This document shows, piece after piece, positions 25,913-54,848 of a stretch of DNA of 64,000 bases. A program made the translations under genes and the position numbers. Under the pieces are notes generated by a model. The model was given only the letters and a program-made list of their open reading frames with translations. It was not told the DNA's origin and did no database searches. The DNA lies in assembly GCA_016936395.1 (NCBI GenBank), contig JAFGXY010000043.1, positions 62,001 to 126,000 of the forward strand, written 5' to 3'. Each line of letters begins with the position of its first letter. Position 1 is the first letter of the stretch. Source of the DNA: Paracoccaceae bacterium (GTDB lineage: Bacteria > Pseudomonadota > Alphaproteobacteria > Rhodobacterales > Rhodobacteraceae).

Positions 25913-26710
25913 GTGGCGGTTGACCCCACTGCCCGCATCCACCCTTCGGCCATCATCGAGGCCGGGGCGCAGATTGCTGCTGGCGTCGAGGTTGGCCCCT
26001 TTGCCATGATCGGGGCCGGGGTCACGCTGGCGGCGGGGGTCGTGGTCAAATCGCATGCGGTGGTGACCGGCTGGACGCAGATTGGCGAAGGCACGGTGAT
26101 CTTTCCCTTCGCCTGCGTCGGCGAGGTGCCGCAAGACCTGAAGTTCAAGGGCGAACACACGCGGCTGATCGTGGGGGCGCGCTGCAAGATCCGCGAAGGC
26201 GCCACGCTGAACACCGGCACGACAGGCGGTGGCGGGGTGACACGGGTGGGCGACGATTGCCTGTTGATGACCGGCGCGCATGTCGGCCATGATGCCAGCC
26301 TTGGCAACCGGGTGATTTTGGCCAATCAGGCGGCGATTGCCGGGCATTGTCAGCTGGGCGACGATGTGATCGTGGGCGGGCTGTCGGGCGTGCATCAATG
26401 GGTGCGCATCGGGCGTGGGGCGATCATTGGTGCTGTGACGATGGTGACCAATGACGTGCTGCCGCATGGGTTGGTGCAAGGCCCGCGTGGCGTGCTGGAC
26501 GGGCTGAACCTTGTGGGGCTGAAACGGCGCGGGGTGGAACGGTCCGAGATCACCGCCTTGCGCGCGGGCTATCAGATGCTGGCGCAGGGTGAAGGCTCGT
26601 TTGTCGACCGGGCGCGGCGGCTGTCGGAAGAAACCGAAAGCCCGCATGTGCGCGAGATGACCGAATTCATCCTGTCCGCCTCGGACCGCAGTTTCCTGAC
26701 CCCGAAATGA
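25913..26710 (+). CDS. lpxA: UDP-GlcNAc acyltransferase
   Basis: Hexapeptide repeats, IHPSAIIEAGAQI, GLNLVGLKRRGV; GTG start. Confidence 0.95.
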   Translation: MAVDPTARIHPSAIIEAGAQIAAGVEVGPFAMIGAGVTLAAGVVVKSHAVVTGWTQIGEGTVIFPFACVGEVPQDLKFKGEHTRLIVGARCKIREGATLNTGTTGGGGVTRVGDDCLLMTGAHVGHDASLGNRVILANQAAIAGHCQLGDDVIVGGLSGVHQWVRIGRGAIIGAVTMVTNDVLPHGLVQGPRGVLDGLNLVGLKRRGVERSEITALRAGYQMLAQGEGSFVDRARRLSEETESPHVREMTEFILSASDRSFLTPK

Positions 26711-51550: not shown

Positions 51551-52234
51551 TCACTCAAGGCGTGCGGCAACATGTCGCAGCGCCTGCGGGTCCAGCAGGC
51601 GCACCGTACCACGGTCCGTGGCCACCCAGCCGGCACGGGCAAAGGCATCCAGCCGCCGCGTCACCACTTCGCGCGCGGATCCGATGCGGGCGGCGAGTTC
51701 GGCCTGGGTCGCGGTTACCAGACTGCCCTCGGCAAGGTCAAGCAGCGCCAAGGCCAGACGGCTTTCGATACGGCCAAAAGCCACCCGCTCCAGCAGCCGC
51801 GTGACATCCTGCATCCGGCGGGCAAAGGTCTGCATGCAATGGGCGCGGAAGGCGGCGTCACTGTCCATCAAGGCAAGGAAAAGCGGGCGGGGGATCAGAA
51901 CCAGCTCGGCGTCGTTGGCCGTGATCGCTTCGGCGGAATAGGGCTCGCCTCCCATCAGGCCAAGCGTGGTCTGCACGCAGGATTGCCCGGGTTCGACCGC
52001 ATAAAGCAGAATCTCGCGCCCCGAAGGTCCGGTAAGGAACACCTCGACGCGGCCGGACAGCACCAGCGGGAATCCGGTAACGGCATCGCCGGGGCGAAAC
52101 AATACCGTGCCGCGGTTCAGCCGGATCGGGGTCAGGGCACCAAGACGGCGGGCTGCAGCGGGTGAGAGGTCGGGCAGGGTTTCGGTCCAGTGTTGCATTG
52201 TATCCAGACGGGTGATTTCAGCGTGATCTGACAT
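51551..52234 (-). CDS. Crp/Fnr family transcriptional regulator
   Basis: cNMP-like domain (VLFRPGDAVTGFPLVLSGRVEVFLTGPSGREILLYAVEPGQSC) and HTH (TQAELAARIGSAREVVTRRLDAFARAGWV). Confidence 0.9.
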   Translation of the reverse strand: MSDHAEITRLDTMQHWTETLPDLSPAAARRLGALTPIRLNRGTVLFRPGDAVTGFPLVLSGRVEVFLTGPSGREILLYAVEPGQSCVQTTLGLMGGEPYSAEAITANDAELVLIPRPLFLALMDSDAAFRAHCMQTFARRMQDVTRLLERVAFGRIESRLALALLDLAEGSLVTATQAELAARIGSAREVVTRRLDAFARAGWVATDRGTVRLLDPQALRHVAARLE

Positions 52235-52395
52235 GGAATGGCGCATGTGCACAACCTGTTGTCCCGGCAGGTAATTCGGCATTCCGTCGATGCCGTATTT
52301 GACAGGACATGGCGATTGCGGTGCCGGTTTTAGAACAATCGACGCGTCAAAGGCGAGAATCTTGCTGAAGTGTAAACAAACACTCAACCCATGCG

Positions 52396-52511: not shown

Positions 52512-53030
52512 ATGATGACAATTGGAAAGAAAACGGCACGGCTGGCATCGGGCTGCGCTGCTGCGCTGTTGATGACGACGGTCGCTGCGTCTGCTGCGAC
52601 TTATCTTGACACGGTTTCAGGCGGGAACGATCCGTTCCCCGATCCGCTTTTCGAGGGACAGGCGCTGGAATCGCCGGCCTTGGCCAAATGTGATGAAGGG
52701 GTCGATGGTGCTCTTTCGTCCACCTGCTCGACGTGGGTAGACGGTAAGGCGTCGGGTGATTACGCATCTGCGTTCACGCTGACCTACTACTTGGTCGATG
52801 ATGAATACTCTTTTGACTGGACATTTGATCCTACCAAGGTGACGGGCGCGAACAGCGTTCTTTATCCGGCCTATGTGGCCGTGAAGCAGAGCACGTTTTA
52901 CGACATCTGGAAGCTTGGCCCCGGCGAGTCCCTTGGCGGGACCATTGCTTCTGGTCTTGCAGCGATTTCGCATGTCAGCTCTTACGACACCGGAGCGCCG
53001 TCTACCGTGCCGCTGCCTGCCGCAGGTTAG
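52512..53030 (+). CDS. Secreted protein ending at a truncated VPLPA-CTERM motif
   Basis: Signal peptide MMTIGKKTARLASGCAAALLMTTVAASAA; ends ..STVPLPAAG then TAG. Confidence 0.85.
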   Translation: MMTIGKKTARLASGCAAALLMTTVAASAATYLDTVSGGNDPFPDPLFEGQALESPALAKCDEGVDGALSSTCSTWVDGKASGDYASAFTLTYYLVDDEYSFDWTFDPTKVTGANSVLYPAYVAVKQSTFYDIWKLGPGESLGGTIASGLAAISHVSSYDTGAPSTVPLPAAG

Positions 53031-53087
53031 CTGATGGTGGCCGGGCTTGGCGGGTTGGCCGCAGTGCGTCGCCGCAAGCGCGCCTGA
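53031..53087 (+). other. In-frame continuation beyond TAG: TM helix + basic tail of a VPLPA-CTERM sorting signal
   Basis: Own translation after TAG: LMVAGLGGLAAVRRRKRA then TGA. Confidence 0.85.
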
Positions 53088-53106
53088 TCTGCGTCAGAAC
53101 ATCGGG

Positions 53107-53134
53107 AAAGGGCAGCCCTTGGGCCGCCCTTTTT
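53107..53134 (+). terminator. Rho-independent terminator
   Basis: aaagggcagcccttgggccgccctttttc. Confidence 0.8.
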
Positions 53135-53136
53135 CG

Positions 53137-54636
53137 TCAATCCATCTGCTTGAAGTTGAAGGCCGAGCCTTCCTTGATGCCGCTTGGCCAGCGAGAGGTG
53201 ATGGTCTTGGTCCGTGTGTAGAACCGGAACGAATCCGGCCCGTGCTGGTTCAGATCGCCAAAGGATGATTTCTTCCACCCGCCAAAGGTGTGATAGGCCA
53301 GCGGCACCGGGATCGGCACGTTGATCCCGATCATCCCCACATTGACGCGGTTGGCAAAGTCGCGCGCGGTGTCGCCGTCGCGGGTATAGATCGCGGTGCC
53401 ATTGCCGTATTCGTGATCCATCGCCAGTTTCAGCGCGTCTTCATAGGTTTTTGCACGCACGGTCGACAGCACGGGGCCGAAAATCTCGCGCCGGTAGATG
53501 TCCATGTCGGGGGTGACATGGTCAAACAGATGCGGGCCGACAAAGAAGCCATCCTCATAGCCTTGCAGCGCAAAGTTGCGGCCATCGACCACCAGAGTCG
53601 CGCCTTGCTCGATGCCGGATTCGACCAGCCGCAGGATATTGGCCTTGGCGGCGGCGGTGACGACTGGGCCGTAATCGACATCATTGCCCGAGGTGTAGGG
53701 GCCCACTTTCAGCTTTTCGATCCGCGGGATCAGCTTTTCGATCAGCCGGTCGGCGGTTTTATCCCCCACCGGCACTGCGACGGAAATCGCCATGCAGCGC
53801 TCACCCGCAGCGCCATAGCCCGCGCCGATCAGCGCATCGGCGGCCTGATCAAGATCGGCGTCGGGCATGATGATCATGTGGTTCTTGGCGCCGCCAAAGC
53901 ACTGCACGCGCTTGCCGTTGGCACAGCCGCGGCCATAGATGTATTCGGCAATCGGGGTGGACCCGACAAAGCCGATGCCTGCGATCTGCGGGTTGTCAAG
54001 GATGGCGTCGACCGCGTCCTTGTCACCGTTGATGACCTGCAACACGCCATCGGGCAGCCCTGCCTCTTGCATCAGCGCGGCCAGCATCATCGGCACCGAC
54101 GGGTCACGTTCCGACGGTTTCAGGATGAAGGCGTTGCCGCAGGCCAAGGCAGGGCCCAGTTTCCACAGCGGGATCATGGCGGGAAAGTTGAACGGCGTGA
54201 TGCCGGCGGCCACGCCAATCGGTTGGCGCATGGAATACATGTCGATGCCGGGGCCGGCGCTGTCGGTGAACTCCCCCTTCAGCAGATGTGGCGCGCCGAT
54301 GCAGAACTCGATCACCTCCAGCCCGCGCTGGATATCGCCCTTGGCATCGGGCAGGGTCTTGCCGTGTTCCGACGACAGCACCTCGGCCAGCTTGTCCATG
54401 TCGCGGTTCAGAAGGTCGACGAAGCGCATCATCACCCGCGCCCGACGCTGCGGGTTGGTGGCCCCCCATTTGACCTGGGCGCGGGCGGCATCGGCGGTGG
54501 CGGCATCAAGCTCGGCCTTGCTGGCCAATGCCACGCGGGCCTGCACCTCGCCCGTCGCGGGGTTGAAGACATCGGCAAAACGGCCCGAAAGCCCTTGAAC
54601 ATGCTTGCCGTTGATCCAGTGACCGATTTCTTTCAT
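53137..54636 (-). CDS. mmsA: CoA-acylating methylmalonate-semialdehyde dehydrogenase
   Basis: PFNFPAMIPLWKLGPALACGNAFILKPSERDPSVP, GAAGERCMAISVAV, TFGGWKKSSFGDLNQHGPDSFRFYTRTKTITSRW. Confidence 0.95.
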   Translation of the reverse strand: MKEIGHWINGKHVQGLSGRFADVFNPATGEVQARVALASKAELDAATADAARAQVKWGATNPQRRARVMMRFVDLLNRDMDKLAEVLSSEHGKTLPDAKGDIQRGLEVIEFCIGAPHLLKGEFTDSAGPGIDMYSMRQPIGVAAGITPFNFPAMIPLWKLGPALACGNAFILKPSERDPSVPMMLAALMQEAGLPDGVLQVINGDKDAVDAILDNPQIAGIGFVGSTPIAEYIYGRGCANGKRVQCFGGAKNHMIIMPDADLDQAADALIGAGYGAAGERCMAISVAVPVGDKTADRLIEKLIPRIEKLKVGPYTSGNDVDYGPVVTAAAKANILRLVESGIEQGATLVVDGRNFALQGYEDGFFVGPHLFDHVTPDMDIYRREIFGPVLSTVRAKTYEDALKLAMDHEYGNGTAIYTRDGDTARDFANRVNVGMIGINVPIPVPLAYHTFGGWKKSSFGDLNQHGPDSFRFYTRTKTITSRWPSGIKEGSAFNFKQMD

Positions 54637-54848
54637 CTTTGTCTCCCTGAAGATTTGGGCGACCATAGCCGCACGCAAATGCCGGTTAAAGCAGCTTTGT
54701 GACAAGTGGGCATCGAAGTGGTGCCGTCCGCCGATTAACGTTCCGGGCACCCACCGGATCAGGCGTGAGGTGCAGCGACTGGAAGCTTTGACTTGACAGA
54801 ATGTCGCAGGGGGCGGACCCTGAACCCAAGTTCATGGGGAGGAGTGCG

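Follow-up and report, generated by a model that had tools for sequence, protein, structure and literature searches.

PEP-CTERM proteins are described as carrying a C-terminal signal composed of a short motif, a membrane helix and a cluster of basic residues, the motif being placed on the inner membrane's outer face (Haft et al., PMC1569441). In ZepA, a PEP-CTERM protein of Anabaena, the C-terminal signal is apparently cleaved off, and the protein occurs extracellularly (PMC10957091). Alleles that have lost a C-terminal anchor are already well known for LPXTG proteins. In some pneumococci the LPXTG motif of NanA is lost by a frameshift and a premature stop, and the truncated form is secreted and occurs in the supernatant (PMC5817201). 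For InlA, natural premature stop codons are likewise described (PMC12427964).

The locus described here carries a PEP-CTERM-type signal of the VPLPA-CTERM class that is interrupted by an in-frame TAG. The preferred reading, to which a probability of about three in four is given, is a recent G-to-A nonsense change in the VPLPA-CTERM tail that is real in the organism, and by which the exported protein is most likely released.

The interrupted gene and its read-through frame

The following features were located in the window, which is the whole stretch of 64,000 nucleotides that was analyzed.

52512..53030, plus strand: truncated ORF of 172 aa, with a signal-peptide-like N terminus and a small secreted domain (ORF; homologues in three other genera, see below)
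52512..52598, plus strand: signal-peptide-like N terminus, MMTIGKKTARLASGCAAALLMTTVAASAA (by eye, KK, a hydrophobic core and ASA-A)
53007..53027, plus strand: VPLPAAG, the recognition part of the VPLPA-CTERM signal (TIGR03370 match of the read-through frame)
53028..53030, plus strand: TAG in frame at position 8 of the signal (Trp, TGG, in relatives)
53031..53087, plus strand: rest of the signal in the same frame, with the hydrophobic helix, the RRRKRA tail and the closing TGA (sequence and TIGR03370 match)
about 53103..53134, no strand assigned: terminator-like hairpin and T run between convergent gene ends
53137..54750, minus strand: aldehyde dehydrogenase, mmsA-type by inspection, serving as synteny marker with the relative L048/L050

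The ORF starts with ATG at 52512 and ends in ...STVPLPAAG-TAG. The frame behind the TAG reads LMVAGLGGLAAVRRRKRA and is closed by TGA at 53085-53087. With X set at the stop, the read-through frame matches the VPLPA-CTERM profile TIGR03370 at 35.1 bits (E 9.9e-9, profile positions 1-25 of 25), the curated cut-off being 25.35 bits; since this match is full-length and above the cut-off, the continuation is a complete sorting signal and not a chance reading. The window signal scored 38.9 bits in the signal search of its own genome, with "1 TAG" reported inside, which places the downstream frame far beyond chance. The first-pass annotation had described a TAG splitting a VPLPA-CTERM signal, with the helix and basic tail left intact, and this description holds with exact coordinates. 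The signal is absent from the C terminus of the encoded protein, as the TAG follows VPLPAAG. The annotated 172-aa product matched no NCBIfam or Pfam family in the profile search, and no PDB relative was found. Structure prediction from two sequences gave mostly strands at a quality too low to build on, with a mean pLDDT of 47.7.

A GC-rich hairpin with TTTTT behind it is situated approximately 16 nt 3' of the TGA, with a folding energy of -21.3 kcal/mol by RNA folding; the consensus terminator scan did not list a hairpin at about 53103-53134. A terminator behind the TGA had been put forward in the first-pass annotation as a sign that the longer product is ancestral. The hairpin does lie 3' of the TGA, but the argument drawn from it is weak, as the hairpin is common to the convergent mmsA-type gene; because it sits between convergent genes, it is by itself not proof of which stop is ancestral. 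The divergent upstream gene (51551-52387, minus strand) has by eye the look of a Crp/Fnr-type regulator.

The ancestral codon at the stop

Relatives of the window gene were not found in 15 other genomes of the genus. They are present in three other Rhodobacteraceae genera at 36-47% identity, the best at 47%. One of these is represented twice, L048 and L050 being the same sequence (GenBank JABDLJ010000038.1, a Rhodobacteraceae MAG), and its gene is convergent with an mmsA-type dehydrogenase gene, as in the window. This syntenic orthologue reads IPLPAAAW (IPLPAAAWLLIAGLG; longer reading ...IPLPAAAWLLIAGLGTLVAVRRKKRA), and the orthologue L049 reads IPLPAAGW (IPLPAAGWLLLAGLA; longer reading IPLPAAGWLLLAGLAG). 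L051 reads VPLPASALLLLGG and has Leu at the stop position. The residue at the stop position in orthologues is thus Trp in L048/L050 and L049 and Leu in L051, and the contrary case named in the first-pass annotation, orthologues that all end at VPLPAAG, was not encountered.

Position 8 is Trp in 50 of the 85 distinct VPLPA-type signals from the fetched loci, a sample that leans to high-scoring signals. After [VI]PLPAAG, Trp occupies this position in 44 of 50 signals from these loci, and in the context [VI]PLPAAGxLM it does so, encoded by TGG, in all 13 other sampled signals. The nearest look-alikes are paralogues within the genus, such as L022 (VPLPAAGWLMVAGLGGLAALRRRKRA). The step from TGG to TAG is a single G-to-A transition, and the ancestral codon at 53028-53030 is best taken to be TGG, encoding Trp. 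The first of the options considered earlier, that TGG was very recently mutated to a stop, is therefore favored by the orthologues and by the same-context signals. The change is judged to be recent because the downstream frame is intact.

A difference of one base in an otherwise perfect signal, found in a draft genome of 77 contigs and 91.5% completeness, would also be produced by a sequencing or assembly error, the former being the third option of the first-pass annotation, or by an assembler that fixed a minority strain variant; the gene of the organism would then be intact and ordinary. However, single-base substitution errors are rare in consensus contigs, while real nonsense alleles are present in most genomes, and an informal look at the long ORFs of the window revealed no other broken gene. 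Such an error is considered unlikely, and the base is probably real.

Recurrence of the stop and decoding of TAG

Among 86 VPLPA-CTERM places in 16 genomes of the genus, an internal stop occurs in the window signal only. Internal stops were likewise not found among the approximately 160 best-scoring signals listed from 397 genomes of the family, a set biased to good scores. The pattern VPLPAxx-TAG gave 14 hits in the 397 genomes, which is below the number for the reversed control pattern; 12 of the hits are unrelated sequence, which leaves the window and L116. The latter (G393:C45:68-91; VPLPASL-TAG-LLGAAVGEAAGLRR) has TAG at the same signal position and was considered as a second case, but its signal-peptide start lies in another frame and it was set aside as a disrupted remnant of a VPLPA-CTERM gene. 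Candidates for recurrent interrupted signals in G471, G418 and G433 were also rejected, their stops being ordinary terminal ones after the basic tail. A homologue from another genus (L162, G097:C5:67900-70300) has a TAA near the N terminus (...FVSCE-TAA-NGDK...) and is otherwise intact through its VPLPA-CTERM signal.

The 18 intact codons behind the TAG, with their full sorting signal, are what would be expected of a programmed or suppressed amber, the second option of the first-pass annotation, by which partial read-through would yield a mix of released and sorted protein. However, the stop occurs in no orthologue, so that the mark of programmed read-through, a stop shared by orthologues and followed by a conserved frame, was not observed here, and beyond the window only the frame-disrupted L116 continues like a signal among the VPLPAxx-TAG hits. 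The amber suppressor tRNA that had been proposed as a check did not appear: none of the 37 tRNAs found and typed in the own genome has a CUA anticodon, in a set that is incomplete, the Trp and Tyr tRNAs likewise not being recovered. TAG is an ordinary stop in the window, since 11 of the 43 long ORFs chosen there by a crude rule terminate with it (some may be shadow ORFs). In the sequences compared, nothing points to a programmed stop. Amber read-through is regarded as very improbable, and a leaky amber that sets, for one gene, the proportion of released to sorted product is hardly credible.

Exosortase and other VPLPA-CTERM genes

The own genome contains nine other VPLPA-CTERM places, none with an internal stop, and therefore shows no sign of a general tail decay. 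A search with PF09721 and TIGR04178 gave no exosortase match in this genome, so that the genome search advised in the first-pass annotation succeeded for further VPLPA-CTERM genes and not for the enzyme. The same two profiles found no match in G005 and G006, near-complete members of the genus with VPLPA-CTERM proteins. Exosortase matches do occur in five further genomes of the genus that have many VPLPA-CTERM places, and both genus exosortases examined are XrtD (TIGR04152 at 626-678 bits).

The lack of a match in the own genome, with XrtD present in relatives of the genus, would agree with an adaptive release allele, in which a lineage devoid of exosortase favors loss of the tail because a tail left unprocessed would keep the protein caught in the membrane. 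Against this, the nine other signals have kept their tails uninterrupted, and the exosortase may sit in the unassembled 8.5% of the genome. Adaptive release is thus rated as improbable, and an ordinary recent nonsense change is preferred.

VPLPA-CTERM and exosortase co-occur strongly across 338 family genomes, in a list reconstructed from the genome numbering (82 with both, 29 with the signal only, 32 with exosortase only, 195 with neither; Fisher p = 1e-27). Among 67 family genomes that are at least 97% complete and have three or more signals, 13 gave no PF09721 match. Signal-bearing genomes in which exosortase was not detected include G005, G006, G123, G144, G150 and G255. Matches to rhombosortase in nine searched genomes were all under the family cut-off, as in control genomes. 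VPLPA-CTERM proteins in genomes with no detected exosortase would be accounted for by another processing enzyme or by signals that are residual, and such proteins in near-complete genomes without a detected exosortase may merit more attention than the TAG. In G124, the window-gene homologue (L049, G124:C20:25222-26692) is immediately followed by an exosortase gene (25937-26692) in the same orientation.

Proposed effect on the protein

The ancestral gene would have encoded a small exported Rhodobacteraceae protein with a VPLPA-CTERM sorting signal at its end. At position 8 of this signal the Trp codon would have become TAG by one G-to-A change, and translation would now stop directly behind VPLPAAG, with loss of the membrane helix and the basic tail, the parts expected to hold such proteins for exosortase processing. 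As both are missing, the product should be exported rather than retained; it is predicted to pass through Sec export and then most likely to be released in soluble form, to the periplasm or the outside. By analogy with ZepA, the short product may resemble the processed form of a PEP-CTERM protein. If the base is real, the locus would be a natural "untethered" allele of PEP-CTERM type that has lost nothing but the helix and tail, and a possible control for studies of exosortase sorting.

Comparison with known systems

The closest system is VPLPA-CTERM (TIGR03370) with XrtD (TIGR04152), which is of PEP-CTERM type. The locus resembles it in having the motif, the hydrophobic helix and the basic tail in one frame, in the several further VPLPA-CTERM genes of the own genome, and in the XrtD of genus relatives. 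It differs in the stop between motif and helix, by which the encoded protein is without two of the three parts, and in that no exosortase was found in the own genome at its 91.5% completeness. The TAG is consistent with an ordinary loss of the anchor by recent mutation (or with an assembly error) rather than with new gene control. The LPXTG truncation alleles of InlA and NanA belong to a Gram-positive sortase system and are backed by experiments and population data, whereas the window holds a Gram-negative signal known from the sequence of one genome. The locus is like these alleles in that an early stop codon cuts off the C-terminal anchor but spares the exported domain.
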